In this document: one piece after another, positions 6 through 64,000 of the stretch
How positions within the stretch are numbered: the first letter of the stretch is position 1
Layout: every line of letters starts with the position of its first letter
NCBI RefSeq assembly: GCF_026151205.1
Contig: NC_087078.1
Coordinates: forward strand, 11,544,175-11,608,174
Origin: Bolinopsis microptera
Taxonomy: Eukaryota > Ctenophora > Tentaculata > Lobata > Bolinopsidae
DNA: 64,000 nt
Direction: 5' to 3'
Made by a program: the position numbers and the translations under genes
Notes under the pieces: model-generated
What the model was told of the DNA's origin: nothing
Database searches by the model: none
What the model saw: the letters and a program-made list of their open reading frames with translations, nothing else

Positions 6-1114
6 CACAGTGGGCTGGGATGCTAGCATAGGCCAAAAATTGACTTTTCCCCCCTCTTTTCTAATTGATTTATCTATTAAGATAAAAAGAATCTCGATGC
101 AATGCAAAAAACCAAAATGAAAAAGGATGAATCGTGTGAAAATGGCACCGCGCCTAAAATTTGTATTTTTTGGCAGTGGAAATTTTGTATTTGACTGCCA
201 AAATTTACTTTTGTTTTATCCTTTCACCATAAATTGTCTTTGTATTAGTTTCCTGAGTTATTTGTGAGTTAGTGATGATCCAAGCTTCCTAGTTACTAGA
301 AAAAAACCCTAAGGGTCTAGCTAATTTGCTGATTTTTTGATGGAGCGCCGATTTTAAACTAAATTTCAGCATTTTTTTCTCTTAAAAAGGGCAAAAATAG
401 TTGCTAACTTCATAATACTTCAAATGGAAACCTACTTCATCTTAAAGCTGAGTTAATTTTGGTTTAGAAGCTTTTGGAATCTGTCTGGGCCACTTTGGGT
501 TATATCTGTTTAAAAAATTAAGAAACTCAAAAATTGGGTAAAATTTGCTGCATTTTTAGATAATTTATGAGCTCAATTTTGCTATTAAATTGACATATTT
601 TAGTTATACTCCATGTTTGTGGCGTTTTTTTGCATCCTAGACCAGATGCACATGGATGAAAAATCAAAATATCACAATTATTATGGTTAAAATTGATGAA
701 AATCCAAAAAATCGTGTTTTTAAACGAAATTTTTGAAAATAACAGGAACAATTTTGGCGTTTCAGAAAATTTTGGTCAGATAAATGGGCACAACTTTTGT
801 TCTGATCAATATTTTTTCATAATTCAAAAAGATTTGAGTTCCTAAGATAGCTGTCCTTTGTTTAAAGTTCATAAAAGAGCTTTAAAATCGATTAAACCTC
901 TAAAAAAACAACTTTTCCTGGGATCAGCCTCCTATTTTTGGACTACAAGAGTGCTCAAAATCGGCCCAAAAATTTTTTTCTGAGACATTTTCGGCCCTGT
1001 GAATGATTGGAATCGTATTTTTGTACCCAAATTACCTTAAAAACAAAGTTAGAGGCATGTGTGATGGTCTAAAATACCCTATGCTAGCATGACCCCCACT
1101 CACAGCCCACTGTG
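6..1114. mobile_element. Transib-like non-autonomous DNA transposon
   Basis: The ends are inverted repeats. The left begins CACAGTGGGCTG and the right ends CAGCCCACTGTG. A second matched block, ATGCTAGCATAGG, lies just inside each end. Both ends are flanked by CATTT (1-5 and 1115-1119), a 5-bp target duplication. A CACAGTG-type terminus with a 5-bp duplication is the hallmark of Transib elements, the relatives of the RAG recombinase. No transposase frame is visible in the AT-rich interior, so it would be non-autonomous. It sits in the zinc-finger array that continues at 1120. The class rests on termini and duplication length only. Confidence 0.6.
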
Positions 1115-2821
1115 CATTTGTAGGGTTTCTCTCCCGTGTGAATCCTCATATGTGTTGTAAGCAAACCATTCTGAGCACTAGAATACGTACATTGACTGCA
1201 CTTATAGGGTTTCTCTCCCGTGTGAGTAAAATGGTGATTAATGAGACTTGATTTAACAGAGCAAGTATATGAACATTCCTTACACTTGTAGGGTTTCTCT
1301 CCTGTGTGAGTACGTTGGTGTCTGATAAGACTTGATTTAATTGAGCAAGTATATGAACATTCGTTGCATTCGTAGGGTTTATCTCCCGTGTGAGTACGTT
1401 GGTGGTTAATAAGATTTGATTTATCAGAGCAATTGTATGAGCATTCGTTGCACTTGAAGAGTTTCTCTCCTGAGTGAGTCCTCATATGTTTCTCTAGATC
1501 ACCTTTCCGAGCACTACAATATGAACATTCATTACACTTGTAGGGTTGGGGGTGATGCAACGTCAATTAATGTCAATTAATGTCAATTAATGTCAATTAA
1601 TGTCAATTAATGTCAATTAATGTCAATGTCAGTTTTGCAAAATTTTGGAATACTGACATTAATTGACACGATATTTTTCGACCAAAGATTATGTAGTTCT
1701 ACCATATTTTTAGCACTTAAGAACGTTTATATCATCAATTTATTCACTACTATCACATATATGGAAATGTGAAATGTGAAAAAAATTCAGATCATTAAAC
1801 AATAAAACTAAAATAATACGGTTTTCCGAAATTTAATTTTCTTAAATGGGCGTGGCCATCCAAGGGCGTGGTTCTCAACATCATCAGAACTTAAAACCCA
1901 CATTAAACGAAATGCCTTCATGACATTTATATTTGAATAACGAATCTTAAACAGCTAACAGTACTCCTTCATACTAAAAAAGCCGATTCTAGATATTTTA
2001 CCTGTATAAGAAACCAATAAAATATGGGCGTGGCCGGTGGGGATCGAAGATGGAAGAGTTGGAAGCTGAAATTTTTTTTGGTGGTCTTTGAACCTAAGGA
2101 TCAACAGATAAGAACATACTCATAATTATTCAAGGACATTTTGTTTTTTGAACCGGTCTAACTTACATAGACGTGAATATCTTGAATATTTATCAAATAA
2201 TGATAATCTCAAATTTCAAGACAAATTAATGTCAATTAATGTCAATTAATGTCAATTAATGTCAATTAATGTCAATTAATGTCAATTAATGTCAATGTCA
2301 GTTTGGGGTTTTTATGGAATACTGACATTAATTGACGTTGCATTCCCCCCGTAGGGTTTCTCTCCCGTGTGAAAGCGTTGGTGTATAATAAGATTTGATT
2401 TAAAAGAGCAAGTAAATGAACATTCCTTACACTTGTAGGGTTCCTCTCCCGTGTGAATACGTAAATGTTTCACAAGATCACTGTTCTCAGTACAGGTATA
2501 AGAACAATTGTCACATTTAAAAGCTTTTCCAACAGGAGAAGTATTTTCTTTGCACAACCTGACTAATGATGGTAATGAATTTAACAAGACATTTCTAGTA
2601 GACATATAATCATTGATTGTTTCACCATGATGTTCTCTGATATGTTCTACAAAGAACTCATCATACAGGAAGTGAGCTTGACATTGCGGACAAATGAAAC
2701 CATGTGCAACTCCAGTCACCTCCTCCTGTTCAGTTTTTATTTCCTTTTTGATGGGAATTAAAGTTATGTTACTCTTTTCTTTATCAGCAGCTGTTGAGGA
2801 TCTTTTACTCCGTGTTAACAT
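1115..2821 (-). pseudogene. C2H2 zinc-finger gene, unit 1, split by transposons
   Basis: Reading starts at 2821 (MLTRSKRSS...). A basic and acidic N-terminal part of about 45 residues containing [13 protein letters not shown] is followed by an isolated finger ([10 protein letters not shown]...HIREHH), a spacer, and then Kruppel-type fingers with CX2CX12HX3H spacing and TGEKPY linkers. Two array fingers are read before the 803-bp element at 1548-2350. Removing it and one copy of its 8-bp duplication lets the array continue in frame with about five more fingers (1547 down to about 1120), until the Transib-like element cuts the next finger. The likely ancestral role is a sequence-specific nuclear DNA-binding protein. 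As it stands the frame is broken and stops soon after each insertion. It is a paralogue of the unit at 3332-4551. Confidence 0.75.
1548..2350. mobile_element. DNA transposon with 8-bp TSD and 10-bp subterminal repeats
   Basis: Termini are inverted: GGGGG, one or two variable bases, then ATGCAACGTCAATTAATG at the left, with the matching complement at the right ending in CCCCCC. GTAGGGTT flanks both ends (1540-1547, 2351-2358), giving an 8-bp target duplication inside a zinc-finger linker codon run. Next to each end is a tandem run of about six or seven copies of the 10-mer TGTCAATTAA. The middle holds no convincing gene. An 8-bp duplication fits hAT, P or related superfamilies, and I cannot choose among them. 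Confidence 0.8.
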
Positions 2822-3331
2822 GACAAACGTTCCTGCATTAATAACTGATTAATGAAATCAAAATACACAAACTTTCCAAATTCAAATATCTACATATTTA
2901 ATTACCAGTGGGTATAAATAAATGGAATATTATTTAAATATAATATTTAGACCACGCTTAGAAATCCATATTCTATCAGTACCACGAGCTATAATTTGCA
3001 GTTAATAAATGTCATATCAGAGTCATAAATTATAAAAATAACAAATAATATAGATTGTGGAAATACATTAAATTTACTAATTTCTACTATTGAGACAAGA
3101 CGAAATCAGTGGGATTCAATTAATGGTTAGATATATATATATCAAATATTAAGTTTAATTTCACATTTATTTGGTCAACAGACTGCAAAATTCTTATATT
3201 TAAATCAGAAAAATTCATTTCAAACATAGCTCTAAACATTTGTGGAGATTATTTCTAGATAATAAATGTAATCATTGATCATACCTCGTAGGTAAACTAA
3301 TAATATAAAAGTGAAAGTAAACTGACATTCT
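2822..3331. other. Upstream flank of zinc-finger unit 1
   Basis: AT-rich non-coding sequence between two tandem zinc-finger units. It is homologous to 4552-4618 plus 7027-7480 (upstream of unit 2) and in part to 10688-10790, so it belongs to the duplicated unit. It includes an undisturbed version of the site into which the element at 4619 inserted (about 2876-2905). I see no gene or clear promoter motif. Confidence 0.6.
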
Positions 3332-4551
<1,220 letters not shown>

Positions 4552-8244: not shown

Positions 8245-8834
<590 letters not shown>

Positions 8835-10676
8835 ATTATTATTATAAAACAGGATCTTACCGACAAAAATGATTCTTAAAAATACCTTAATGCGGTAAAC
8901 TGTACCCTTGAAAAAGATTTTCCCAACATCTGTTGCATGCAGCTATATCTCTAATTTCGTTCAATTCATGCAAGTTGTCCATTTGCAAATTTCTACTACT
9001 TAAATCACTTCTTAAAACCGATAACAAGTTCATTCTAGGTCTCCCCAATCTACCAATGAATAAATTATCTGATTCAATAGCAAAAGAGAGAGCCGTTTGG
9101 GCTGGGGTGTTCTCCATACTCCTGAGAATGTGTCCAAACATCTTCCACCGCTGGTGTTCAATACGCTTGGATAACTTTTCAACTTTGCACCTTTCATACA
9201 ATGCTTTGTTGCTTATCATACCTTTAGGCCATTTGATGTTTAAAATGGACTTGAGGTGTCTACGATGGAGTGTGTCCATTTTCTCCATGGTTGCTTTCTT
9301 AGGACTCCAACTATTTGAGTTGTAAATCAATACAGATACAACTTGAGCATCATATAACCTCAGCTTTCTTTCAAGGGAAATTTTCTTACCGGACAACCAT
9401 ACTTTTCCAAAGTTCTTAAAAGCAATCTCAGCTAGGATTCCCCTTCTTTGAATGTCCTTCTCAGTACAGAGTAAGGAACCTAGTGACTTGTTACTTCGCC
9501 ATGGTTCGTTATTAGCTAATGGCTGACCGTTTGTGTCTTTATCAGATTTTTTGGCCAGGTAGAAGGTACTGAATTCAGTTTTACTTTCATTTACTTGGAG
9601 GTTCCAGTCTTTGAGAATCTCCTTCACTGTAGGAAGGAAAATTCTCAGTTTCTCGATGTCCTCGTCAGCAAAGTCACAATCGTCTGAATATTCCCACTCA
9701 GTTGGAAAACCTAGTTCTGATACTGGTGGGTTTGGTCTCCCAGATACAGCTCTGAGGTGGTGTAAGGCTGCTGCAAGAATAAGTGTGAATAGCTTTCCAG
9801 ATAAACTGTCACCTTGAAAGGCTCCGAGTAAACTTTCAAACTCTTCCGACAGTGAGGAGTTAACACGAACTCTAAGGAGAGTATTCGATAGAAGGTATTG
9901 AACTAAGCGAATGTCGTCCTCCGAACAACCAGCATCCTTCAAAACATTGATGATAGTGTCCCTTTTCACGGTATCAAAAGCTCTACTCATATCAATACCC
10001 ATTTTGCTAAATGTCCATTTCTTCCTCATCACAACAGATATTAGCATTCTCTGAGCCCACACAATGTCAGAGCAGCTCCTACCTCTCTTGTAAGCACTCT
10101 GCCATGGCATGGTGTAGTTGTCAATTCTACTCTCAACCCGTTTTAAGGCAATTTGAGTGAGCATCTTCCTTGATCTGTTTAACAGTGTAAGTGGTCTAAG
10201 GCTTGTGAGGGGACCTTTAGGTTTACCGGGCTTCTGTAGAGGAGTCACAATACCTTGTCCTATTGAACTTATGTATTTGTTCCCACTAAATGACTCGTTA
10301 ATTGCCTCAGCATACTTCTCAAAAGTGATTGGATGGGCGTACTTTATCAACTCATTCTGGAGATTATCTGGACCACTGGCACGGTTTGATTTGAGTTTAC
10401 TTGCAGCAAGTTCAACTTCAACTGGTGTAATGGGGTTATCAAGTGGTTTTGGATCGCAGGTAAAAGGTTGCAGGCCAGCTTCAACTCCTTCTGTTAGTTG
10501 TTTTTCGAAGAAAGATTTCGCTGTGTTTGCTTTCCCTAAATCAGTACCAATAGGGTTGTTGTTGATATCATTGATCACTATGTTACCCGACTTTTTTATT
10601 CCAGCTAAAGATCTTGAAGCTCCAAACATCTTTCTAGCATCGTCAGTGTTATTTATTTCTTCTGCTAGAGCGTCAG
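8835..10676 (-). mobile_element. 5'-truncated non-LTR retrotransposon
   Basis: CCTAAATGTTT occurs exactly on both sides (8824-8834 and 10677-10687), an 11-bp target-site duplication. On the minus strand the 3' end is at the left and carries a short ATA/TAA-type tail (8835-8847). The open frame runs to the 5' edge without an endonuclease domain, so the copy is 5'-truncated as expected from target-primed reverse transcription. It interrupts zinc-finger unit 3. Confidence 0.85.
8887..10629 (-). CDS. Non-LTR reverse transcriptase (truncated ORF)
   Basis: The 580-residue frame contains a reverse transcriptase: fingers motif [14 protein letters not shown] near residue 90, LRPLTLLN, palm motif [12 protein letters not shown] near 210, motif B FQGDSLSG, and motif [12 protein letters not shown] near 313. 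The carboxy region holds a typical LINE thumb and tail with [17 protein letters not shown]. Motif C reads YSDD instead of the common YADD or FADD. The frame stays open upstream of the first Met to the insertion edge, so the true start lay in lost sequence, and no apurinic endonuclease is left. The frame is intact over its remaining length, implying a fairly recent insertion. The clade is not assigned. Confidence 0.85.
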
Positions 10677-10687
10677 CCTAAATGTTT

Positions 10688-15793: not shown

Positions 15794-18700
15794 ATGACTG
15801 TTGAGACAAGCACGCCTACACAAGCTGTTGAGGAACTTTACAAGTATTTAGGTAACATGACGTTTTATTTAAAAGATAGTAATTCATTTGCAGTTTCGTT
15901 GCGAGGTTGTTTGCCTAGTTATCTATGTTAGATTGTAAGCATTCCATGTTTCTTTCAATTGACGAAACATATTATATATTTATTCAGGTGAATTAAAGTC
16001 GAGGGGAGGTCAGAATGTTGAATATGTCAAGGCAGTTTTCGAAAATCATCAGGTATTGTATACTTTAGAGTAGATATTCTAGCCAATTTCAACTTTTATA
16101 ACCGGACTCAGTCTTAATTTACTATGATATCTTGGTTTTCAGTCAATTTTTAACACATCACAAAATTGTATCTGTCCAGTTTGCACGGCAATTATTTCAG
16201 TTCAGCAACATATGTATGCTATACCAGCTGATAGGCATTGCAAACTCCTTGCCCCGCCCCCGGGATTCTCATGTCAGTAGAACGCTAGGAACATTGTTAG
16301 ACGCCCTCTCTAACAGCCCATCAGAACACGCGCAGGAGCTCAAGTAAGAATTATTTTATGTAATAATAATAATTAATAATATTGAAATCATATAATATAA
16401 TCATATGACCATACGTCATCACGTTCACTAGTTTCGGAATAAGATGCAATGCTGTGTAAGAATGAAAAGTATGCATTTTAATACATTATTGTAGAAGTAC
16501 ACAGTACAATCGTACAATCGTACTCCAAAATTTGCCTGCACTTCTCGTTAAGCAAACCAGATCATATCTTGGTGTGTCAGCCTAGTAGGTATAATTATCA
16601 TGATATTGCACATTATAATTGCTGGATAATGGAGAATGATGTGTAATACTGACCGCATTTGAATTAAGTTACTTATTTCTGCACTGTATCCATTGCAAGT
16701 ATTGGTTATTGTACCACTGTTCGTAAAGTTTAAGGTTAATTAAGCTTGGTTGCTGCACCCGTAGGGCGTAGGCTATAGTTATAAACTGGTAGATATAATA
16801 GATTCATTCCAATTTAATTAGATGTCACCTGTGTTGAATAATGTCTTGAAAAATCACAATTCAATAAATTGAATTTCAATTGATTCTATTTAAAAGTTTT
16901 GTGCGTTGTTACAAATTTAGATTGTGTTTCCATCGTTTGAACGATCTTTTAAAAGGTGATATAATAATATTCCTCATGATAATATGCAAGACCTTATTTA
17001 GATAATGTCAGCATTGAAAATGTAAAGTTTTAGTTCGAATGGCCTCTATCAGCTTTTTAGGCCACACCCCTAGATAGGGATTATAGATAATAAACCACCA
17101 TTCATGAAGTGATATCATATAAAATCATAAAACAACTGATGATACAAATTGACATAAAATCAACATCACGAAGTGAACTTTAGCTGTCACGTGACTAGAA
17201 TCAGAACTTTAACTATATCACTGTACATTTATTAAACAATAAACTTATAAAGTGTAAAGGGGACATGCAACAAAACCATTCATGATTTGGCACGGCCAAT
17301 GAATACATATTTGGAAGATATAGACAAAAACAATATAAACGATTTTGGTGTATGTCCCTTTAAGTCTAATATAGTATGATGACAAACTGGTTACTAATTG
17401 GACTGTTAACAGTTTACACTACACAATGTGTCAATTTACTTGGCAAAGATACAATATATTTAACGCGGCTTTTAGAAATTAAACTGCTGACAATACCGTT
17501 ATACTTTTATATTTTTCTGGCATGTCACGAGTGATATTTAACGATGGGTTAAATATAGCTATCGTGTTTAATGATTAGTTACAAATTGAAACTTGTTGTC
17601 TTTCATAAGTGTTGTCGTGTTAGATTGTATTTACGTTGGTGTCTCTTGAAAATAATATTTATACTGTGAACTTACTCAAAGTTAAATTAAATATAATATC
17701 TTCGGTAGGATATGTGATTTCTTTGATAGATTAATATTTGATCCCTTCAAATATTCAACTATTAACCACTACAATATAGACGTATCAGACTTTTAAAGAT
17801 ATCCCTGTAGGTGTTTGTTAGAAGATACGTATCTATCAAGCTTTACGGATGTGATCAGTAAGATACTATTACGAGATTACGACGTCGTTCCACCCGGTCA
17901 CCACCTTGATCCTGATGAGATGGACGAGGTTTAGATTTATTTTACCTTGATTAACACGTTTTCACTTTCTAATAACCAGTGGTCAAATTGTGATTTCAAA
18001 TTTTAGTAAATTATTATTCGTCAGATTAAATAGTTAACATTTAAATTGAACATTCCCCAGAGCTGAGTACACATGATTTTGTGAGTGTTAACAGTACCTA
18101 TGTTTAAGTACCTACAGTACCTATGTATAGGTACCTACAGTACCTATGCTGTCAATATTGATGTCCTTAAGTTTTTACTAAATAGTACAAAATAAGGCCC
18201 CGCTCTGTAATGTTTTGCTCATTTTATTATTCATCAGAGTTCAGAGAAAGTGCGGATGATAGGACTACACAAGGGTAAAGGGGAACCTCTGGGAATAACA
18301 CTGAAGAAGACGAAAGAGGGAATTGTGATAGCTAGGATATTACATGGTGGCTTAATAGGGAGACAAGGATTACTCTCTGTGGGTGACATCATATTAGAGG
18401 TTAGTTACGTAATGTTAGAGGTTAGTTACGTCATATTAGAGGTTAGTTACGTCATATTAGAGGTTAGTTACGTCATATTAGAGGTTAGTTACGTCATATT
18501 AGAGGTTAGTTACGTCATATTAGAGGTTAGTTGTTACGTCATGTTAGAGGTTAGTTACGTAATGTTAGAGGTTAGTTACGTCATATTAGAGGTTAGTTAC
18601 GTCATATTAGAGGTTAGTTACGTCATGTTAGAGGTTAGTTACGTCATATTAGAGGTTAATTACGTCATATTAGAGGTTAGTTACGTCATATTAGAGGTTA

Positions 18701-21700
18701 GTTACGTCATATTAGAGGTTAGTTACGTCATATTAGAGGTTAGTTACGTCATATTAGAGGTTAGTTACGTCATATTAGAGGTTAGTTGTTACGTCATGTT
18801 AGAGGTTAGTAACGTAATGTTAGAGGTTAGTTACGTCATATTAGAGGTTAGTTACGTCATATTAGAGGTTAGTTACGTCATGTTAGAGGTTAGTTACGTC
18901 ATATTAGAGGTTAATTACGTCATATTAGAGGTTAGTTACGTCATATTAGAGGTTAGTTACGTCATATTAGAGGTTAGTTGTTACGTCATGTTAGAGGTTA
19001 GTTACGTAATGTTAGAGGTTAGTTACGTCATATTAGAGGTTAGTTACGTCATGTTAGAGGTTAGTTACGTCATATTAGAGGTTAGTTACGTCATATTAGA
19101 GGTTAGTTACGTCATATTAGAGGTTAGTTACGTCATATTAGAGGTTAGTTACGTCATGTTAGAGGTTAGTTACGTCATATTAGAGGTTAGTTACGTCATG
19201 TTAGAGGTTAGTTACGTAATGTTAGAGGTTAGTTACGTCATATTAGAGGTTAGTTACGTCATATTAGAGGTTAGTTACGTCATATTAGAGGTTAGTTACG
19301 TCATATTAGAGGTTAGTTACGTCATGTTAGAGGTTAGTTACGTCATATTAGAGGTTAGTTACGTCATGTTAGAGGTTAGTTACGTCATGTTAGAGGTTAG
19401 TTACGTCATGTTAGAGGTTAGTTACGTCATGTTAGAGGTTAGTTACGTCATATTAGAGGTTAGTTACGTCATGTTAGAGGTTAGTTACGTCATATTAGAG
19501 GTTAGTTACGTCATATTAGAGGTTAGTTACGTCATGTTAGAGGTTAGTTACGTCATGTTAGAGGTTAGTTACGTCAAATTAGAGGTTAGTTACGTCATAT
19601 TAGAGGTTAGTTACGTCATATTAGAGGTTAGTTACGTCATGTTAGAGGTTAGTTACGTCATATTAGAGGTTAGTTACGTCATATTAGAGGTTAGTTACGT
19701 CATATTAGAGGTTAGTTACGTCATGTTAGAGGTTAGTTACGTCATATTAGAGGTTAGTTACGTCATATTAGAGGTTAGTTACGTCATATTAGAGGTTAGT
19801 TACGTCATATTAGAGGTTAGTTACGTCATATTAGAGGTTAGTTACGTCATATTAGAGGTTAGTTACGTCATGTTAGAGGTTAGTTACGTCATATTAGAGG
19901 TTAGTTACGTCATGTTAGAGGTTAGTTACGTCATATTAGAGGTTAGTTACGTCATATTAGAGGTTAGTTACGTCATGTTAGAGGTTAGTTACGTCATATT
20001 AGAGGTTAGTTACGTCATGTTAGAGGTTAGTTACGTCATATTAGAGGTTAGTTACGTCATGTTAGAGGTTAGTTACGTCATGTTAGAGGTTAGTTACGTC
20101 ATATTAGAGGTTAGTTACGTCATATTAGAGGTTAGTTACGTCATGTTAGAGGTTAGTTACGTCATATTAGAGGTTAGTTACGTCATATTAGAGGTTAGTT
20201 ACGTCATATTAGAGGTTAGTTACGTCATATTAGAGGTTAGTTATGTGATGTTAGAGGTTAGTTATGTCATGTTAGAGGTTAGTTACGTCATGTTAGAGGT
20301 TAGTTACGTCATATTAGAGGTTAGTTACGTCATATTAGAGGTTAATTACGTTATGTTATACGGCTGTGACGTCACGACTTCATAAATCCGCTCGTCATAA
20401 TATTTGAAGTCATGGGTAATGGGTATGCACATGTTCTGCATGTTTGTTTGTTCAGTGTACAATGAACAAACAAAGTGTAACATTTCACATTGTTCTCTAC
20501 TACAAGCAACATGTATTAATGTTAAGTTATCACTAGGAAACACGTTAGACTATTACAATACATCCCCCAACACGGCTACCCCACCACGGCCCGGCTCTCC
20601 TGGACAGCCCGTGTTTTAATTAGTATAAATACACGCTCTCTCAGCTCTCGGAGCTCATGCTGGGCAGTGTTCATTGCTTTGTTGGTAGTTCATCACCGCT
20701 TTTACTTTTTGAAATATCTCCCGCCTGATTGTACACTATTTGTTATTGTACTAGTATATTAAATCGAAGTTCTAAACAAGGGATAGTTAAAACAACGCCC
20801 AACTTTCCCTAAAACAAATAACTAAATATCAAAAACTTCATTGTAATTTCTGCCAATATCTACCAGTACTTTTTGTTATTGTATCGGTAAATCTGATGCT
20901 TTAGATAAGCGGCTTGCTAACGACCTCCATCATATTATAAATGAACTAGTGTAACCCGGCCTACGGCCGGGATTTCACTGCCGCAGTTAAAAAGGGTAGG
21001 AGTAATTACCCGCTGAGTTAAAACCCGGATTAGGCGAGCAATTCTATTCGGAGTGCCCTCACGTATCCAATAGTATGCTTAAAAGATAGTAATTCTTAAT
21101 CAATAATCGATAGAAATTAACCCTTAACACCATGCACCACACCAGCCTATCATATTTGTGAACATGCATTACATTGTCGTATGAAAGTATGAACTCTCTC
21201 TACAGTCCAAACAGACCGTTTGAGCACTCCCTCCCTAATAAGTTTATAGTATTATATGACCATGTAATATATACGCCATGTAATATATACGCTACATAAT
21301 ATTATGCAGAGAGAGAGAGAGAGCTAGCCCCGTAACTCTTGCCGTTCTTCTCAAGCCATTTTATGTAACATATTTTGTGGTAAAAAACCATCAATTAAAC
21401 CACTTACCACCGGCCGATTTTTATAAAATTTGCTTATTGGCTTCGTCAGAGTTTTGTCGGCACTATACCGAAAAAACCAGTCCCGTAACTATTACTGTTT
21501 TTTTTGTATAACCGTTCGGAAATTACACACAGACGATCAGACAGACAGACAGACAGACACACACACACACACACACACATTCTGGTGTTATTAAGGTGAT
21601 TCTCTTCGCCACAAAATATAAAACGCCATGCGAATCTCTAATTTTCTGGTCCTACAAAACTGAAGCATCCAATGTTAGTTAAAACACAACATAATCCTTG

Positions 21701-24700
21701 ATCCACACCACTAAACATCTCACCCTAAACATCTCACCCACACTAAACATCTCACCCTCGCTCTAACACAGGTAAATGGAGCTAAAGTATCTGACGACCC
21801 GAGCGAAGTGCAACAGTGGCTAACCAACACATCAGGAAGTCTCATGCTCACTATACTACCTTCCTTTAACCCCGCCATGTCCGATGTCAAGCAGCTCTTT
21901 GTACGTGCTTTCTTTGATTACGATCCTGCTACTGATGATATGTGTCCCAGCAAGGAGTTTGGGCTGCCCTTTAAGTTTGGGGAAATACTCCAGGTATGGT
22001 TTAGCTTTACTTTAATAGTCAGTTTTATTTGTATTGTGGTCATGATTGTTTGTGGTGGTAAATTTTATCTGTTAGTACAGTTATGCTAGTGATTAGCTGA
22101 AACTATGTGTAGTTTTGAAATAGCACAATTTCGATATGATATATTATTATGTAATGACATTTATTACTAACACAAAGATTTTTTAACACTGCATAATTAA
22201 TCTGCCTGTACAAATAATCTGGTTTGATAGACATTTTATGATACTGTGCATATCTATTTTTGATTCGAATAAAGTTATAATATAATGTAATGATATTATG
22301 ACCTGGTACTGATTCTTCGTGGCAGTGAATATTATCTTTAAGTTATACCAGCGATTCGGTTCGTGTCTCTTTTAAACTAGACAATGTCAATGTGAGGAGA
22401 TTATGTCTTTTAGGGCCATATTTACCATATTTGCTTAAAGTACGAATTTGAAAGAAGAATTTTGAGTGCCACATTTAAGTGACAATATAATAGGGCCCCC
22501 AACCCCTCATAAAAATTTGTATTTACTAACTGAGATCCTCTAAATGCTGTATGGCCCTAAGGGCTGATAAATAATCTGACTGCTATGAATTAATAGTATT
22601 TTCTTATTATATTCACGATTAAATCTTTCATGTGCGCGGAAAAATAGACGTGCTCATACTACACTGTATATTATATTGTAGTATTGTGCATACTTTGTAT
22701 TTGGAATAGAATTGGCTCGTTCACGTGTAAGCAAATTTACAGAGCTTTCTTGAGATTTGTGATTTATCACCAGTCATGTGACACTTAAGAAGATGATATG
22801 CATTTTCCCGTGTTATTATTGCATACATTTCACACAATGTAACGGAGAATTTGTTTAACAATGTCTCATATCTTCCACCTGCGTGCTGCACAAGAATGTT
22901 TTAAACTATTCTTTGTACTGAATTGAATATTTCATACACGGTGAGTAGCTGAACTACATTGTGCACGGTGCACAAGTACTGCCGCTACGCTGCAGAGTGA
23001 ATATCTTAGCAGAGCCAATATAGTTAATGTTGCTATAATGGGGTTGTGACAAGTCCCCATTCATCACAGCCCGCTAGTTTTACTGCCTCCTTATATATAG
23101 CGGATATGATACTATATAATATAATTATCTTATATTATGTAACCTCAGTGTACTGTGCTCTGTAGTCGGATAAAATGTCAATAATGTATCATTGTCAATG
23201 CACGAAAGTATAACAAAGGTTCTGTACCTTCATCATATACTGTCAAGCCCACAATGTTACATTGTTATACTGTTACAATGTCACAATGTTACACTTTTAC
23301 ATTCTCTACAATATCTCCCTACACAATGTCAGTAGGTAGTGCAACTTAATTAATTAATTATTGGTTAAGAGCGTGTATAATGACCGGGTGTTTGATAAAC
23401 ACTACAATGTGTGGCCCAGTCTAATGGAATGCATGACAAACGTTTAACTCATCAATCATGACGTCATAGTTTATTGAGCTCACCGTTATATTGTTGACTA
23501 CTTGACTGCCCATTATGTTCACTACAATGCCCTCTAGCAGGGCTCACCCTCTTGTGTGTAATCTTCTTTAATAGGGGTTCGCAAATCAAATCAGTTTGTG
23601 TATGTGCACAGTGTTGCGTTATATTGAGAGGTTATACTTATAGCAATATACTGACTTAGTGTAACATAATCAGATATACCATCGCAGTTTAAAAGTTCCT
23701 TTACCCCATCATGAGCAGAGGTTTTCCATCATGTCATAACTCATCTCTTACTGAGGATACTAGAGAACGTCCACTAACCTCTAATCCTACAGGAGGGAAC
23801 GTCCACTAACTAACCTCTAATCCTACATGTTGTGATACGAGGGAATGTCCACTAACTAACCTATAATCCTACATGTAGTGATACGAGGGAACGTCCACTA
23901 ACTAACCTCTAATCCTACAGGTAGTGATACGAGGGAACGTCCACTAACCTCTAGATCTCTAAATAGTTAGTGATACGAGAGAACGTCCACTATAACCTAT
24001 ACTATTACAGGTAGTAAACAAGGACGATGATAACTGGTGGCAAGCTGTAAAGGTGCACAGTGAGAATGAAAGTGAGCGACCCCGGCAAGCTGGTCTTATA
24101 CCCAGTCTTGTGCTTCAAGAGAGGCGCAGAGCTTTCATCAACCAGGATATGGTAGGTAGCTTTAAAGCTTTTAGAGTTTTTTTAGTTCTTTTATTGTACC
24201 TTTTAGACAAAATCTTAAGGACAAATTTCTTAACAGCTTTATACTGCTGACAGTATTAAATTCAAGGTTATTACAATATCATCTTAAATGAAAAATACAA
24301 ATCTATTTGATATGACATTAAACAAAGTTCAAAATATGTAATTGTCTTTAATCGCATGATAACACCAGGTCAAGAAAGCAAAGTCAATGAAGAAGCGGAA
24401 GATAATGTACTCAACCCAAAAGAATGCAGACTACGACAGGCACTCAGTTCCCATCTACGAGGAGCTCGCCAGAATGCCTCCATTCCAACGTAAAACCATG
24501 GTTCTTGTAGGATCTGACAACACGGGCAAAGATTCTCTAGTCAGTAAACTCCTGACAAAGGATCCTGATAGATTAGGTTTGTGTATTTAAAGTGTAATCA
24601 TGTAATTGGATTACTCGTTAGAGAATGACGAGATTATCAATGATGTGTACATTCCTAACATTCGTGAAAAAGTAACGTGATACTGTAACTCTTGTAACTT

Positions 24701-26496
24701 TGATACTTATCTGAGTATTACAGCCCTTATTAGCACGCAATTGTAGCCCTCGTTTACCTCATTTTACTGGCTGTAATCCAGAGTAAACAGTCTCCTTCTC
24801 CTTTAAACTTTATAATTGAACATGGTAAAATTCAAAATCGTTTTGCCATTCCGCACGACTAACTAGATAACCCTAAAACTTGGGAAAGAATGACATGAAT
24901 GTCCAGTAAAAGTGGGTTACTATTAATAAACAGCATTAACCTGAACTACAACCCTATTCAGCAACTCCTATGTAAAAGTGGGTTACTATTAATAAATAGC
25001 ATTAAACTGAACTACAACCCTATTCAGCAACTCCTATGCCACACACTTCTAGAAGGCCCCGTGATGGGGAGGACTCTGGACAAGGTTACTGGTTCGCTAA
25101 AAGCAGAAAAGAAATGGAGGACGAGTTCTTACAAGGTTTTTACTTTATTCTTTCAAGTTCCAAGTAACCTGGATTTTCTGTATGATTTGTAAGTTCTTGG
25201 AACAAGCTATGAAAAGGTTAAGATATCTATATTGTCCAACAATTGCAAAAGTGACTAAGTTAGTACTGTTAATAAACATAAAACTGGAACCACCTTTCAG
25301 GAAAATACCTAGAGTTTGGTGAGTACGAGGGTAATTTGTACGGAACTAAACTAGACAGTGTGCGAGCGGTAATGAGAAGCGGGAAAACATGCGTCTTATC
25401 AATCCACCCTCAGTCTCTTAAATCTATCAGGTCAGTTTTACACTTTCCCAGTCTTATTTAGCAGATTAATTATATCTAATAAATTAAACAGTCCATATGT
25501 TCCGACAAGTGTGTTTTCTCAATTAATACTATTCTTTCCTCACATTGGTTACATGGGATTCTGTGTTTCAAAATAACGCAATCACATCACGCCACAGTAT
25601 TTCATATGACGTCATCATATTAGAGTTCAACTAGTTAGTAAGCCAAGAATTGGATCACGAAAAATGACAGAAGTATTACGCAGTTATATAAGGTAATAAT
25701 CAAGTGATATTAAATCCGTTTATTCCCAGAACGCCAGAGTTCATGCCATTTGTTGTGTTCGTGACAAATGAAGACGAGATGGCCAGTGATAAGAGTGATA
25801 GCCGAACTATGTACGACGATTACAGGTAAAATATTATTAAATCTGTATTCTAAGTATTAACTTCCTTGTTTTACATTTTTATTTTGGGATTTGCCTGCCG
25901 TTTAGTAAAATTAATGTGTCGTTTTCGCCGGTACTCATTATATTACTCTCTGTCACTTTGTAAAGTTTAAAAAATGAAACCTTTGACAAGACCGACATTT
26001 TAAATTAGAGTTCTCAAAATATGTCGAATCTTATTGTTATTATCAAATATCAAATCATAGTTAATCATTGTAAATCACAATACTCATATTTCGCCGGTAC
26101 TCATTATATTACTCTCTGTCACTTTGTAAAGTTTAAAAAATGAAACCTTTGACAAGACCGACATTTTAAATTAGAGTTCTCAAAATATGTCGAATCTTAT
26201 TGTTATTATCAAATATCAAATCATAGTTAATCATTGTAAATCACAATACTCATATTTCAGACAGTATTTCGACAAATCAATAAAAATTTCTAACCACAAT
26301 TATATTGATATTTCAGACAGTATTTCGACAAATCAATAAACATTTCTAACCACAATATTGATATTTCAGACAGTATTTCGACATGATGATAAACCTGGAT
26401 CCACGTGATCTGGAAGGCGCTTACACTTCAGTAAGACAGGGACTCAAAAGATGTGAGCTGGACCATCAGTGGGTACCAGTCAGTTGGGTTTATTAG
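15794..26496 (+). CDS. MPP2/6: MAGUK scaffold, MPP2/MPP6/varicose type (12 exons)
   Basis: Phase-consistent exons: 15794-15851, 15988-16052, 16180-16343, 17811-17928, 18238-18399, 21772-21993, 24011-24151, 24369-24576, 25028-25135, 25301-25430, 25740 less ten (25730)-25825, 26370-26496. They give about 532 residues. Order: first L27 (exons 1-3, VEELYKYLGELKSRGG), second L27 (exons 3-4, HAQELKCLLEDTYL), PDZ (exons 5-6, GEPLGIT loop, GDIILE|VNG across the junction), SH3 (exon 6-7, FFDYDPATDD, NWWQAV), HOOK (KKRKIMYSTQKNADYDRHS), guanylate kinase-like (MVLVGSDNTGKDSL, TSRRPRDGEDSG, GEYEGNLYGTK), C-terminus WVPVSWVY. That ending and the length match MPP2/MPP6. MAGUKs of this family scaffold membrane and cell-junction complexes, with an enzymatically inactive kinase fold. 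The segment between FVVFVTNE and QYFDMMI is roughly 25 residues shorter than usual. First-exon choice is the least certain point. Confidence 0.85.
16344..17810 (+). other. MAGUK intron 3
   Basis: The donor gtaaga at 16344 follows the first base pair of a split Lys codon, and the acceptor is ctgtag at 17810. AT-rich sequence with no recognisable gene, RNA or repeat. Confidence 0.6.
18391..20356 (+). repeat. Splice-donor minisatellite, ~92 units of 21-24 bp
   Basis: The unit is ATATTAGAGGTTAGTTACGTC (21 bp); three units are 24 bp through an added TGT. Variants change ATATTAG to ATGTTAG and GTTAGT to GTTAAT. The first unit is the real junction of PDZ exon 5 and its intron: exon end ATATTAGAG (Ile-Leu-Glu), donor GTTAGT at 18400. 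Every unit repeats both the exon end and a donor. All unit lengths are multiples of three and no stop occurs until 20383. Any donor therefore splices in frame to exon 6 (phase 0, 21772) and would insert n copies of VSYVILE into the PDZ domain before VNGAKV. Confidence 0.92.
20357..21720. other. Rest of MAGUK intron 5
   Basis: No gene recognised. It contains a GC-rich hairpin (CCCGGCCTACGGCCGGG at about 20955), a TATAAATA motif at about 20624 of unknown meaning, a (GA)n run at 21308-21323, and an (ACAG)n-(AC)n run at 21541-21579. Two CCCGTAACT blocks (near 21330 and 21482) with the neighbouring (ACAG)n run look like an old dispersed repeat, possibly SINE-like. Confidence 0.5.
21711..21771 (+). 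repeat. Repeated branch-site/pyrimidine region before exon 6
   Basis: About four imperfect copies of a CTAAACATCTCACCC-like unit lie directly before the acceptor (CTAACACAG ends at 21771). Each copy supplies a possible branch site and pyrimidine tract. Confidence 0.75.
21994..23754. other. MAGUK intron 6, unique part
   Basis: AT-rich. No gene or RNA was recognised. There is only low-complexity sequence, for example repeated short ACAATGTTACA-like motifs near 23245-23320. Confidence 0.5.
23755..24010 (+). repeat. Splice-acceptor minisatellite before exon 7 (~6 units)
   Basis: Units of about 35-55 bp run GATACGAGGGAACGTCCACTA, ACTAACCTCTAATCC, TACAGGTAGT. The last unit is the true acceptor, ATTACAG followed by exon 7 (GTAGTAAACAAGGACGA). 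Earlier units carry decayed copies of that exon start (GTAGTGATACGAGGGA). AG is kept in the copies ending at 23792 and 23920 and changed to AT in two others. Splicing to the decoys would run into a stop (CAC TAA) within the unit. Confidence 0.8.
24907..25038 (+). repeat. 66-bp tandem duplication spanning exon 9 acceptor
   Basis: Units 24907-24972 and 24973-25038 are nearly identical and each contains CCCTATTCAG followed by the first 11 bases of exon 9 (CAACTCCTATG). The second copy is the working acceptor (exon from 25028). Use of the first (exon from 24962) would give Ala-Thr-Pro-Met and then a TAA stop. Confidence 0.9.
25926..26257 (+). repeat. 166-bp intronic tandem duplication (copy 1 only)
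   Basis: CGCCGGTACTCATTATATT starts at 25926 and again at 26092, and the sequence between is identical. The following two segmental copies have only one such unit. It lies in the last intron. Confidence 0.9.
26251..26369 (+). repeat. Triplicated splice acceptor before exon 12
   Basis: ATATTTCAGACAGTATTTCG occurs three times, with AG ending at 26260, 26316 and 26369. Only the third continues into the conserved C-terminus (ACATGATGATAAACC). The first two continue ACAAATCAATAAA. Joined to exon 11 they would keep QYFD and then diverge into a stop, removing the end of the kinase-like domain. All three segmental copies share the arrangement. Confidence 0.88.
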
Positions 26497-27254
26497 ACTA
26501 ATTACCCTAATTAGCCTTTAATGAGATGCTAATCGAGAACTAATTATCGATCTCGTGATATGTTTACCACACACAAGAGTTAATACCAGTAATTAATTAC
26601 CTTACCCCATATTAATATACCCTGTGTTTTATATAATATACGTGTCAACAATAACATAACTAGCTGCTCGTTATCAAGTGTTAGATGTATTATATTTATT
26701 TTAGCAATTTCGCAGAAAAAAATTGTTATTTTCAAAGTATGTATTCTGTTTATTACGTTTTAATGAAAGAGTTTTTTTGAAACGAAGCTCAGATTATTAT
26801 ATTAACAATTTTAAAGTTTACCACAGATCTATAATATATTGCTACTAGTCAGAATTGTTTTAATGCGCTTAAGTCTGGTACAGCATGGAATTTCTTATTG
26901 TTATTCAGAAACAAATTTTGCTCGTGAGATTTTGAGTTTTATTTGTCCAAGAAGTGGATTCTGAATTTAGATAATGGCAGCACGATATGCAATGTATTCC
27001 CTTATTTACGAATTTGAATTCAGGGAATTTGAATTTGGTCTGCTAATGGTAAAATGAATTCGGTGAGGACTTCCCGCACTAGTGAATACTGAATCTGACA
27101 AAATATTTCCATATTTGGAAATCATTGATTATTGCCCTGGACGCTTGTCCAGCATATATTTATGTCAATAGATTAGGAGCAGTTTAGCGCAAAATCAGGC
27201 ATTTCCAAAATTGTATAATTTTGACGAATCATAAAAGGGCAATGCAAGATTCTC

Positions 27255-28986
27255 AGTGTGCGAGCAGTAATGAGAAGCGGGAAAACATGCGTCTTATCAA
27301 TCCACCCTCAGTCTCTTAAATCTATCAGGTCAGTTTTACACTTTCCCAGTCTTATTTAGCAGATTAATTATATCTAATAAATTAAACAGTCCATATGTTC
27401 CGACAAGTGTGTTTTCTCAATTAATACTATTCTTTCCTCACATTGGTTACATGGGATTCTGTGTTTCAAAATAACGCAATCACATCACGCCACAGTATTT
27501 CATATGACGTCATCATATTAGAGTTCAACTAGTTAGTAAGCCAAGAATTGGATCACGAAAAATGACAGAAGTATTACGCAGTTATATAAGGTAATAATCA
27601 AGTGATATTAAATCCGTTTATTCCCAGAACGCCAGAGTTCATGCCATTTGTTGTGTTCGTGACAAATGAAGACGAGATGGCCAGTGATAAGAGTGATAGC
27701 CGAACTATGTACGACGATTACAGGTAAAATATTATTAAATCTGTATTCTAAGTATTAACTTCCTTGTTTTACATTTTTATTTTGGGATTTACCTGCCGTT
27801 TAGTAAAATTAATGTGTCGTTTTCGCCGGTACTCATTATATTACTCTCTGTCACTTTGTAAAGTTTAAAAAATGAAACCTTTGACAAGACCGACATTTTA
27901 AATTAGAGTTCTCAAAATATGTCGAATCTTATTGTTATTATCAAATATCAAATCATAGTTAATCATTGTAAATCACAATACTCATATTTCAGACAGTATT
28001 TCGACAAATCAATAAAAATTTCTAACCACAATTATATTGATATTTCAGACAGTATTTCGACAAATCAATAAACATTTCTAACCACAATATTGATATTTCA
28101 GACAGTATTTCGACATGATGATAAACCTGGATCCACGTGATCTGGAAGGCGCTTACACTTCAGTAAGACAGGGACTCAAAAGATGTGAGCTGGACCATCA
28201 GTGGGTACCAGTCAGTTGGGTTTATTAGACTAATTACCCTAATTAGCCTTTAATGAGATGCTAATCGAGAACTAATTATCGATCTCGTGATATGTTTACC
28301 ACACACAAGAGTTAATACCAGTAATTAATTACCTTACCCCATATTAATATACCCTGTGTTTTATATAATATACGTGTCAACAATAACATAACTAGCTGCT
28401 CGTTATCAAGTGTTAGATGTATTATATTTATTTTAGCAATTTCGCAGAAAAAAATTGTTATTTTCAAAGTATGTATTCTGTTTATTACGTTTTAATGAAA
28501 GAGTTTTTTTGAAACGAAGCTCAGATTATTATATTAACAATTTTAAAGTTTACCACAGATCTATAATATATTGCTACTAGTCAGAATTGTTTTAATGCGC
28601 TTAAGTCTGGTACAGCATGGAATTTCTTATTGTTATTCAGAAACAAATTTTGCTCGTGAGATTTTGAGTTTTATTTGTCCAAGAAGTGGATTCTGAATTT
28701 AGATAATGGCAGCACGATATGCAATGTATTCCCTTATTTACGAATTTGAATTCAGGGAATTTGAATTTGGTCTGCTAATGGTAAAATGAATTCGGTGAGG
28801 ACTTCCCGCACTAGTGAATACTGAATCTGACAAAATATTTCCATATTTGGAAATCATTGATTATTGCCCTGGACGCTTGTCCAGCATATATTTATGTCAA
28901 TAGATTAGGAGCAGTTTAGCGCAAAATCAGGCATTTCCAAAATTGTATAATTTTGACGAATCATAAAAGGGCAATGCAAGATTCTC
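27255..28986 (+). pseudogene. Terminal MAGUK exons, copy 2
   Basis: 1732 bp, almost identical to copy 1. It carries partial exon 10 (27255-27328), exon 11 (27628-27723) and exon 12 with stop (28102-28228). One synonymous change (GCG to GCA) lies near its start. Exon 10 lacks its own acceptor because the copy begins mid-exon, although the junction happens to create TCTCAG. It lies downstream of the copy 1 stop codon, so it is not part of the normal protein. It could serve as an alternative 3' end, or be a recent duplicate or an assembly error. Confidence 0.8.
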
Positions 28987-30718
28987 AGTGTGCGAGCGGT
29001 AATGAGAAGCGGGAAAACATGCGTCTTATCAATCCACCCTCAGTCTCTTAAATCTATCAGGTCAGTTTTACACTTTCCCAGTCTTATTTAGCAGATTAAT
29101 TATATCTAATAAATTAAACAGTCCATATGTTCCGACAAGTGTGTTTTCTCAATTAATACTATTCTTTCCTCACATTGGTTACATGGGATTCTGTGTTTCA
29201 AAATAACGCAATCACATCACGCCACAGTATTTCATATGACGTCATCATATTAGAGTTCAACTAGTTAGTAAGCCAAGAATTGGATCACGAAAAATGACAG
29301 AAGTATTACGCAGTTATATAAGGTAATAATCAAGTGATATTAAATCCGTTTATTCCCAGAACGCCAGAGTTCATGCCATTTGTTGTGTTCGTGACAAATG
29401 AAGACGAGATGGCCAGTGATAAGAGTGATAGCCGAACTATGTACGACGATTACAGGTAAAATATTATTAAATCTGTATTCTAAGTATTAACTTCCTTGTT
29501 TTACATTTTTATTTTGGGATTTACCTGCCGTTTAGTAAAATTAATGTGTCGTTTTCGCCGGTACTCATTATATTACTCTCTGTCACTTTGTAAAGTTTAA
29601 AAAATGAAACCTTTGACAAGACCGACATTTTAAATTAGAGTTCTCAAAATATGTCGAATCTTATTGTTATTATCAAATATCAAATCATAGTTAATCATTG
29701 TAAATCACAATACTCATATTTCAGACAGTATTTCGACAAATCAATAAAAATTTCTAACCACAATTATATTGATATTTCAGACAGTATTTCGACAAATCAA
29801 TAAACATTTCTAACCACAATATTGATATTTCAGACAGTATTTCGACATGATGATAAACCTGGATCCACGTGATCTGGAAGGCGCTTACACTTCAGTAAGA
29901 CAGGGACTCAAAAGATGTGAGCTGGACCATCAGTGGGTACCAGTCAGTTGGGTTTATTAGACTAATTACCCTAATTAGCCTTTAATGAGATGCTAATCGA
30001 GAACTAATTATCGATCTCGTGATATGTTTACCACACACAAGAGTTAATACCAGTAATTAATTACCTTACCCCATATTAATATACCCTGTGTTTTATATAA
30101 TATACGTGTCAACAATAACATAACTAGCTGCTCGTTATCAAGTGTTAGATGTATTATATTTATTTTAGCAATTTCGCAGAAAAAAATTGTTATTTTCAAA
30201 GTATGTATTCTGTTTATTACGTTTTAATGAAAGAGTTTTTTTGAAACGAAGCTCAGATTATTATATTAACAATTTTAAAGTTTACCACAGATCTATAATA
30301 TATTGCTACTAGTCAGAATTGTTTTAATGCGCTTAAGTCTGGTACAGCATGGAATTTCTTATTGTTATTCAGAAACAAATTTTGCTCGTGAGATTTTGAG
30401 TTTTATTTGTCCAAGAAGTGGATTCTGAATTTAGATAATGGCAGCACGATATGCAATGTATTCCCTTATTTACGAATTTGAATTCAGGGAATTTGAATTT
30501 GGTCTGCTAATGGTTAAATGAATTCGGTGAGGACTTCCCGCACTAGTGAATACTGAATCTGACAAAATATTTCCATATTTGGAAATCATTGATTATTGCC
30601 CTGGACGCTTGTCCAGCATATATTTATGTCAATAGATTAGGAGCAGTTTAGCGCAAAATCAGGCATTTCCAAAATTGTATAATTTTGACGAATCATAAAA
30701 GGGCAATGCAAGATTCTC
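28987..30718 (+). pseudogene. Terminal MAGUK exons, copy 3
   Basis: 1732 bp. Partial exon 10 (28987-29060), exon 11 (29360-29455) and exon 12 with stop (29834-29960) are intact. It differs from copy 2 by only a few bases, such as GGTTAAATG for GGTAAAATG near 30513. The reading content is fully preserved, which indicates a very recent event. Confidence 0.8.
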
Positions 30719-32442
30719 GAATATTTAACATAAATTGACAGTTTAGATGCGGATTGGGGCATTATCAATAATTTATTCTAAAGAATTGTGTACTGGATTT
30801 GTAGGGCGCAAGTTTTTATCAGTATGGCGCTAGCATTGGTGCACGCACTTGCAGCACGCACGCGCGTATTTTCAATTTTGTTCATGCTATTAAATTAATT
30901 AAAGTGTTAAGTCCTGCGCGGACTTAACTTGTAGCGCGATGCACTACTGGGTCGCGCGCGCGCATCCAATAATGCTTCTCGCAACCACGTATGCAGATCG
31001 GCGAGATGCGAAGGATTGACATCGTGAATCAAGGACTTAACATGTGGCACAAATATCTCTATTTAATCTGCTTTCGTCACGCTTTTTGCATTCCATTCCG
31101 CTTATACCAGTAATAAACGCACTCAACGCCGCCTTTTCACGGTTTTATATACGGTTATAATAATCACCATGAGTGAGGAGTCCTCGACATGGTAGTGCTA
31201 TATTCCACACCGGATGGTTGTGTTAAAATTGGTGGAAACGATGCCAGGCCATATGCAGCCCCGACATGATATGAGCTGGACGAGGCTGATCAGACAATCA
31301 GGAAACTCTAACTGTTCAAGAGAGACCATCTCATGAGCAATTTGTATTTAAAGTGAGTGTAAGTACTGCATCGGAGGTCGGTAAAAATGATTTATGTATG
31401 CGGCATTGGTATGGGCCGAGCGTGCTAAATCACTTTACAGTCGATCTTCGAGATTGTTCTAAAAGGGCCCCCGACAGTTGAAACCAACTTGAATCGTCAA
31501 TCGATGCATGGATGTATTTTCAGACGCTGATTCCGAATAACCCCCGATGACATATATAATACTAATAGTGTTAAAATGCTCCTATAGCGAGATATTGGCG
31601 AAAAACTGTTTCGATCACGTGATTACGTGATATGACGCGACGGTATTAGGAAGTTAGTCCAATTTCACGTTAGGGTTTCAGCATATGCTTTTGTTAAGCT
31701 AAGGATTGGGTTATGGTTAGGGTTATACTTATGAACAGATAAGAGGGTAAGGGTTTCGAATAGTCATTCAGGGCCAGCTAGAGAACGGGTTGAAAAAGTC
31801 ACGTGACACTGACAGTCGAGTGTAGAGTGATTAATCATCATCCGCATTGGGCAGATCGTGTTTTAAAGAATTATGATTTTTAAACGCTATGATAACTGAC
31901 CGTGTATGGGCTACACACCGAACCCGATATTTTCGGCCACATACTGTTCAAAGATTTATATCTTTGAAAGGAGCCTTCTGCCTGTATGCTGTACCGTATC
32001 GACCGGTAATAATCAGTTTTACATATAGCTATTGTGTTAAATTTTATTAACGTAATCATTTAGAAACCCCCTAGCTCCCTCCCACGTTCAACTTCAATGA
32101 TTATCATTAAGTAATATGTGAACGACCCATTAAAGACTTATTCTATTTTATTTATAATTTGATTTTGTAGATTTTAAGACCCAAAATAATACAAAATGAT
32201 CATTTTGTCCACCATTTATCAATATTTCTCATTAAGATTTAAATTTTGCATTCAAATAGGTTTGCACTTGTTTTTTTATTATCCAGACCTCTAGTATAGA
32301 TCGTCAAGCGCTTAGTTTTTCGATTAGCTGTCGATCTAGAAATAAAGTTTTACAAAACATCAAGTTGAACCTGAGTCAATCAGCGATAATTTTAAGATAG
32401 AAACGCACGTGAAATGTTTAGAGTTTACTCGTTAACTATATA
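30719..32442. other. Gene-free repeat-rich interval
   Basis: No gene was recognised. 30830-31000 is GC-rich with CGCGCGCGC stretches. 31560-31640 resembles 14080-14135 (shared TTAAAATGCT and TCACGTGA-type sites), followed in both places by GGTTAGGGTT-like sequence. These are probably relics of one dispersed element family. Confidence 0.45.

Positions 32443-36334: not shown

Positions 36335-64000
<27,666 letters not shown>

Follow-up and report, generated by a model that had tools for sequence, protein, structure and literature searches.

The stretch analysed here, called the window throughout, comprises 64,000 nucleotides of the ctenophore Bolinopsis microptera (contig NC_087078.1, positions 11,544,175 to 11,608,174 of the forward strand; 39.2% GC) and contains a gene of the MAGUK p55/PALS family in which the splice donor of exon 5 is repeated in a long tandem array. 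The gene and its repeats lie on the + strand. A partial gene model extends from 15794 to 26496 with exons 1, 2 and 4 to 12 placed. The start codon and exons 1-4 were placed by eye, exon 1 at 15794-15851, exon 2 at 15988-16052, exon 3 with its end near 16343 and its start not fixed, and exon 4 at 17811-17928. Exon 5 (18238-18399) encodes the first half of a PDZ domain and ends with the residues GDIILE (...GGT GAC ATC ATA TTA GAG). Exon 6 (21772-21993) starts with VNGAKV and encodes the second half of the PDZ domain and the start of SH3; its phase-0 acceptor at 21772 reads TAACACAG/GTAAAT, where the slash here and below marks the splice junction. Exons 7 (24011-24151), 8 (24369-24576), 9 (25028-25135), 10 (25301-25430), 11 (25730-25825) and 12, the last one (26370-26496), complete the model. 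Joining exons 5-12 through the first donor gave 397 amino acids ending at a stop codon, with matches to PDZ (49.7 bits), SH3_2 (26.0 bits) and Guanylate_kin (118.3 bits), i.e., the PDZ-SH3-guanylate kinase module that defines MAGUK p55 (MPP/PALS) proteins. The closest solved chain was MAGUK p55 subfamily member 5, and the GDIILE/VNG junction, where intron 5 interrupts the PDZ domain, aligns with the PDZ domain of PALS1 (GDEVLEING). As judged from its sequence, the gene is a MAGUK p55/PALS relative, predicted to be intact when the first donor is taken. Two paralogous PDZ regions were examined (L038 and L039), and both have one open frame across the intron 5 site and no intron.

Intron 5 is 3372 bp long when counted from the first donor and 1431 bp when counted from the last one. 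The array occupies 18400..20340 and consists of 92 units, 89 of 21 bp and three of 24 bp, followed at its right edge by the last donor and a diverged partial unit (20341..20358). With the first donor (18400..18405) and the last (20341) included there are 93 GT donors before the single acceptor at 21772, as in tandem alternative 5' splice sites; 90 of them read GAG/GTTAGT and three GAG/GTTAAT, the latter being those of units 13 and 25 and the last donor. The commonest unit, GTTAGTTACGTCATATTAGAG, accounts for 56 of the 92, and the array reads (VSYVILE)n. Tandem Repeats Finder (TRF) reported a period of 21, 93.4 copies and 95% matches, and the head-to-tail units of one length class and high identity qualify the array as a minisatellite. 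The initial annotation had described roughly 92 in-frame copies of a donor, in units of 21 or 24 bp, inside a PDZ domain, and in this respect it was accurate: the domain is split at the array, exon 6 does begin in phase 0, and all 93 donors are in frame with it. Equally, its view that the unit is the exon 5 end plus its own donor holds, as TTAGAG closes exon 5 at 18399, and GACATCATATTAGAG/GTTAGT differs from the array unit TACGTCATATTAGAGGTTAGT at 2 of 21 positions. The array contains no stop; the first one in frame on read-through is the TAA at 20383..20385, so that the frame stays open for 715 codons from the start of exon 5 (724 amino acids from stop to stop). The consensus unit has one open frame among six, that of exon 5. 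Only the 5'-most donor gives an uninterrupted PDZ domain with GDIILE joined to VNG.

The array also has an internal order, in that units 7-13 are nearly repeated by units 19-25, which fits growth by recombination. Searching the genome (264.65 Mb in 232 contigs) with a 41-bp two-unit probe (up to 3 mismatches) gave 85 listed matches, all inside the array; absence of a match in such a search is no proof of rarity. A dispersed satellite is thus not supported, since among the probe matches listed copies occur only at the MAGUK locus. As RNA, the initial 401 nt of the array folded no better than shuffled sequences (z 0.43), and RNA structure therefore singles out no donor there. A stretch at 25613-25650, TGACGTCATCATATTAGAGTTCAACTAGTTAGT, with copies near 27513 and 29245, resembles an array unit together with the exon 5 end, a likeness that may be due to chance.

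Repeats spanning a donor were also looked for at exon ends of motor protein genes elsewhere in the genome. The sample comprised 30 of 73 myosin matches taken as loci and, as stretches of 301 bases, 74 of 109 kinesin matches, 24 of the other 43 myosin matches and 20 of 67 dynein matches; domain ends, stop-rich matches and near-copies were for the most part excluded. Donor picking, which made no use of position +3, yielded confident donors at 64 of 128 myosin and kinesin ends and at 14 of 20 dynein ends, in total 78, while the 70 others were dropped. In four of the 78 the 24-mer around the donor was repeated nearby at a match of at least 20/24. These were kinesin L179, with units of 32-36 bp and 50 donors by exact string (52 copies by TRF), kinesin L178, with 35-bp units and 25 donors, dynein L200, with at least four copies of a 62/63-bp unit in a repeat that runs past the 301-bp stretch, and kinesin L081/L180, with a 53-bp duplication in two copies. 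As in the MAGUK array, each unit of these repeats holds the exon end and its donor. Past the required first donor there are 24 extra copies in L178, 49 in L179 and one in L180.

The three kinesins could be joined to their next exons, and here the choice of donor has consequences. Joins through the first donor carry the kinesin motor (PF00225) over the junction, at 146.9 bits in L179, 89.2 in L178 and 77.5 in L180, whereas joins through the second donor contain a stop codon in all three. If the frame is followed beyond the first donor, a stop is reached within about 1 to 11 codons in L178, L179, L180 and L200; for the dynein, which could not be joined to a next exon, the stop lies about 11 codons past the first donor. 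From the stops after the second donor and the motors across the first it follows that functional transcripts of the three kinesins need the 5'-most donor. By likeness to them, the MAGUK gene would mainly use its first donor as well.

We therefore favour, as the likely though far from certain reading, a donor minisatellite whose 5'-most donor is mainly used, the other 92 being mostly intronic spectators. We infer its growth and its donor use from the sequence as follows. A tandem duplication of about 21 bp that took in the donor and the preceding end of exon 5 would have given birth to the array, which may then have grown by unequal exchange or slippage and by duplication of blocks. Units added downstream of the old donor would leave the original in place and be themselves intronic, and the spliceosome would mainly take the 5'-most donor, which directly adjoins the real exon, and so produce a normal PDZ-SH3-guanylate kinase protein. 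In favour of this origin, minisatellites are abundant in the genome, with 87 tandem arrays in 99 kb of flanks of myosin and U1 loci (8% coverage). The initial annotation had left the choice between one donor always picked and a ladder of isoforms; the three kinesins speak for the one-donor side and weaken the ladder.

Several points weigh against this reading. Firstly, no sequence feature was found that would set the first donor above the 89 other GTTAGT copies in strength, and its preference is deduced from genes that require it for function and not from measured use. Later donors may also be used and their products then destroyed. Secondly, the MAGUK array is open throughout, unlike the other four, so that products of its later donors would carry no stop as a mark. 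Thirdly, more than accident may be involved in the growth of arrays at donors. Only the first unit of an array can lie over a donor without harm, and for this position a model of random seeding predicts 0.62 donor-spanning arrays in 78 donors against the four seen (P about 0.004), an excess to be taken as a hint, given that the test was devised after the hits were seen, on a small sample and with two detection methods compared. A cruder measure, local-repeat coverage, gave 4 of 78 donors vs 34 of 420 intron positions, with no difference between them (Fisher p 0.49).

The array donors have T at position +3, a base that is rare there in most animals. Among the 78 picked donors, false picks included, the +3 base was A in 36, T in 24, G in 14 and C in 4. 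In control runs the picker, which fired 65 times at the true exon ends, still fired 12 and 7 times once it had been moved into the exon by 57 and 66 bases, and 17, 24 and 25 times at 90-111 bases into the intron; the strict setting gave 34 at true ends vs 5 and 3 in exons and 4, 7 and 5 in introns. A shift of 48 bases was set aside because true donors were still overlapped. The false picks from introns had T at +3 in 40-47% of cases (0-43% in the strict setting), and GT within intron bodies was followed by T in 422 of 1252 cases. False picks thus also bring in T at +3, and the share of GTT donors rests mainly on joined exons. In the MAGUK gene 4 of 10 placed donors have T at +3. Joins at 12 kinesin loci, a non-random choice in which two had a place-holder for the next exon, were judged by what we take to be motor motifs; eight were judged to continue the motor, five through GTT donors (L100, L121, L134, L135 and L148), two through GTA and one through GTG.

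The genome also holds U1 small nuclear RNA (snRNA) genes of two kinds. At least 10 genes scored over the Rfam gathering cut-off of 69.5, a lower bound since 42 of 3149 candidates were scored. Eight of the ten have the usual 5' end, ATACTTACCTG. The remaining two, L048 (C3:16850284-16850446) and L049 (C3:16766214-16766376), are divergent, with the 5' end ATACTAACCTG, which is complementary to GTTAGT donors and pairs fully with CAG/GTTAGTAT. They score 78.2 and 77.1 bits, respectively, against the Rfam U1 family. Of 47 predicted U1 pairs, 10 have both sides changed, all of them in L048/L049; two pairs broken in both genes and one more broken in one of them count against U1 membership. The upstream element CAAACACAAGGAAATATT is identical or similar in all ten genes, L048 and L049 included. 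No third class was found, a 5'-end pattern allowing two mismatches having matched the same ten genes only. The predicted energy of pairing with the array donors is -6.8 kcal/mol for the canonical and -10.7 for the variant U1 with 11-mers ending in TA or TG, and -8.4 and -12.3, respectively, with the 11-mer ending in AA. GTTTGT donors gain nothing from the variant, which consequently does not explain the whole GTT class. The GTT donors in other genes and the two U1 genes matched to GTTAGT suggest that the array donors are probably real U1 targets. In the literature search no work pairing ctenophores with U1 snRNA was found.

Among the other explanations, the one that survives best, though we regard it as unlikely, is that many of the 93 donors are used and give PDZ variants with 0 to 92 extra VSYVILE-type heptads after GDIILE. 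Such an in-frame ladder is possible because the array is open: each of the donors keeps the frame of exon 6, and stops are absent from the units. The shared GAG/GTTAGT of 90 donors and the like U1 pairing energies would make them similar targets, the RNA structure of the first 401 nt favours no single one of them, and a protein with one heptad keeps a full-length PDZ match, at 42.4 bits vs 49.7 without it. However, the insert lands within ILEVNG, and once five heptads are inserted, the best match to the PDZ profile takes in no more than positions 4-52 of its 81. The requirement for the 5'-most donor in three kinesins with like repeats also argues against a ladder, the units bear no sign of coding selection, and a unit length divisible by three is expected in one case of three.

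The initial annotation had further suggested that the frame of the array may be under selection, and this we reject, on the substitution counts of the units and on the four other donor repeats that meet stops. Seven kinds of substitutions occur among the 92 units, three synonymous, four nonsynonymous and none creating a stop. Stop-creating changes make up 5 of the 63 possible ones, and seven random changes would include none with a probability of 0.56; three or more synonymous changes of seven have a probability of 0.19. In length the units differ only by a 3-bp insertion, which appears three times in a repeating block. Selection on frame or protein is not evident from these two probabilities and one shared insertion. 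The units of the four other donor repeats measure 35, 32/33/36, 62/63 and 53 bp, and in each of the four the frame soon runs into a stop beyond the first donor.

A broader proposal, improbable in our estimation, combines several of these elements: minisatellites would start preferentially at exon ends with their donors, putting a few percent of 5' splice sites at the head of an array; GTT donors would be read in part by a dedicated, rematched U1; and the arrays would serve as platforms for multiple U1, the in-frame cases giving graded ladders of isoforms. More doubtful still, and in our view very unlikely, is that the downstream donors have been kept by selection since bound U1 small nuclear ribonucleoproteins, perhaps with the variant U1, promote splicing at the first donor or, in an intron of 3.4 kb, prevent premature polyadenylation. 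The donor core TTAGAG/GTTA is constant in the 92 units (P 0.0085, the core being chosen after looking), but significance is lost when the core is set to positions -3 to +6 (P 0.15). The variant U1 is the best pairing partner of GTTAGT, the donor-spanning arrays seem to exceed the random-seeding expectation, and suppression of polyadenylation is a described activity of U1 in the accessible part of PMC3826338; against this, pervasive minisatellites account for the arrays without selection.

The accessible part of PMC10232365 describes the B. microptera assembly as made with wtdbg2 and then subjected to gap closing and pilon polishing, so that the array itself is better assured than its exact number of copies or its purity. 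That the consensus made or inflated the copy number, the purity or even the whole array is highly improbable: this assembly route and a run of 187 A within a ragged repeat of the same window speak for it, whereas shared variants in ordered blocks, the three 24-bp units, zero frame-breaking indels across 1941 bp and four independent like repeats of different sequence elsewhere in the genome speak against it. The A run, at 59306-59492, looks like an assembly fault in itself. It lies within a very long tandem repeat of about 111/222 bp at 47928-63203, which gives the untranslated impression of being Thr/Ser-rich and becomes ragged past 55 kb.

Short repeats cross other splice sites of the MAGUK gene as well. 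A 46-bp tandem repeat (23793..24015, its last part added by TRF only at the 92-bp period) crosses the acceptor of exon 7 (24011), a 66-bp tandem duplication (24906..25038) that of exon 9 (25028), and a 56-bp tandem repeat (26242..26383) that of the last exon (26370), where TTTCAG/ACAGTATTTCGACA occurs three times. These three acceptors fit a general tendency to duplicate across exon edges. No clear excess of repeats was found at the splice edges of the gene, with a copy of at least 22/24 within 400 bp at 3 of 21 edges vs 180 of 2000 random positions, drawn from 1000-45000 of the window with the array included, several edges being 1-6 bases off the final model. The region of exons 10-12 belongs to a segment of about 1732 bp that is present in about three tandem copies at 25360-30720, of which the gene model needs the first only. 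Each copy has TTTCAG/ACAGTATTTCGACA three times, at 26242-26383, 27974-28115 and 29706-29847; the upstream acceptors of this kind lie 53 and 109 bp away, not multiples of three. In L055, at 2836-3058, a 72-bp unit is present three times with an acceptor-like TTTCAG/A, about 980 bp downstream of a myosin-like match. Elsewhere in the window, 84-bp repeats on the minus strand at 1113-4190 and 8444-8824 look by eye like zinc-finger arrays, and 9800-10680 on the same strand reads, also by eye, like a partial reverse transcriptase of the long interspersed nuclear element type.

With intronic minisatellites and variable number tandem repeats the array shares short head-to-tail units, diverged edge units, block duplications and a mostly intronic position; it differs from them in that its first unit lies across an exon end, that every unit has its own 5' splice site, and that several genes of one genome have such donor arrays. 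Tandem alternative 5' splice sites comprise GYNGYN-type and other closely spaced donors. They are likewise donors in a row, all in frame in the MAGUK array, but there are 93 candidates here instead of 2-3, they are 21 or 24 bp apart, and they would have arisen through minisatellite growth. The literature on intron gain describes how tandem duplication of exonic segments holding AGGT creates splice sites. Here, too, duplication over AG/GT copies a splice site, with the differences that no new intron or exon is needed, that tens of rounds would have taken place, and that on the best reading the array stays within an existing intron. Human variant U1 snRNAs (PMC5159530 and PMC13172311, in their accessible parts) resemble L048/L049 as divergent copies besides a main U1, while the 5'-end change of the latter rematches +3 to GTTAGT donors, which are used by other genes of this genome. 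Among the titles listed, none dealt with splice-donor arrays, in a search that left most subscription journals uncovered and is weak evidence of novelty. The accessible text of PMC10599564 mentions neither ctenophores nor Mnemiopsis, and that of PMC6142364 concerns exon skipping and makes no mention of donors. The statement of the initial annotation that no case of this scale had been described is uncontradicted by the titles listed, but the array has relatives in its own genome.

The array, then, is a real and extreme donor minisatellite, one of a kind that recurs in this genome; most likely its first donor is used and the others are tolerated by splicing. Competition between identical donors has mostly been studied in reporters with two or three sites. 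Natural genes with 25 to 93 near-identical donors in a row are available in this genome, the array being in frame in one of them and out of frame in the others, and the rule of donor choice, whether the first, the nearest or a spread, could be taken from the Iso-Seq reads that served the annotation of B. microptera (PMC10232365). Should the first donor win every time, exon definition or co-transcriptional commitment would have to be very strict; if it is not always used, a repeat array would have become a dial for protein length. The rematched U1 beside GTT donors would allow co-evolution of donors with U1 to be tested, in a phylum that may be the sister group of the remaining animals.

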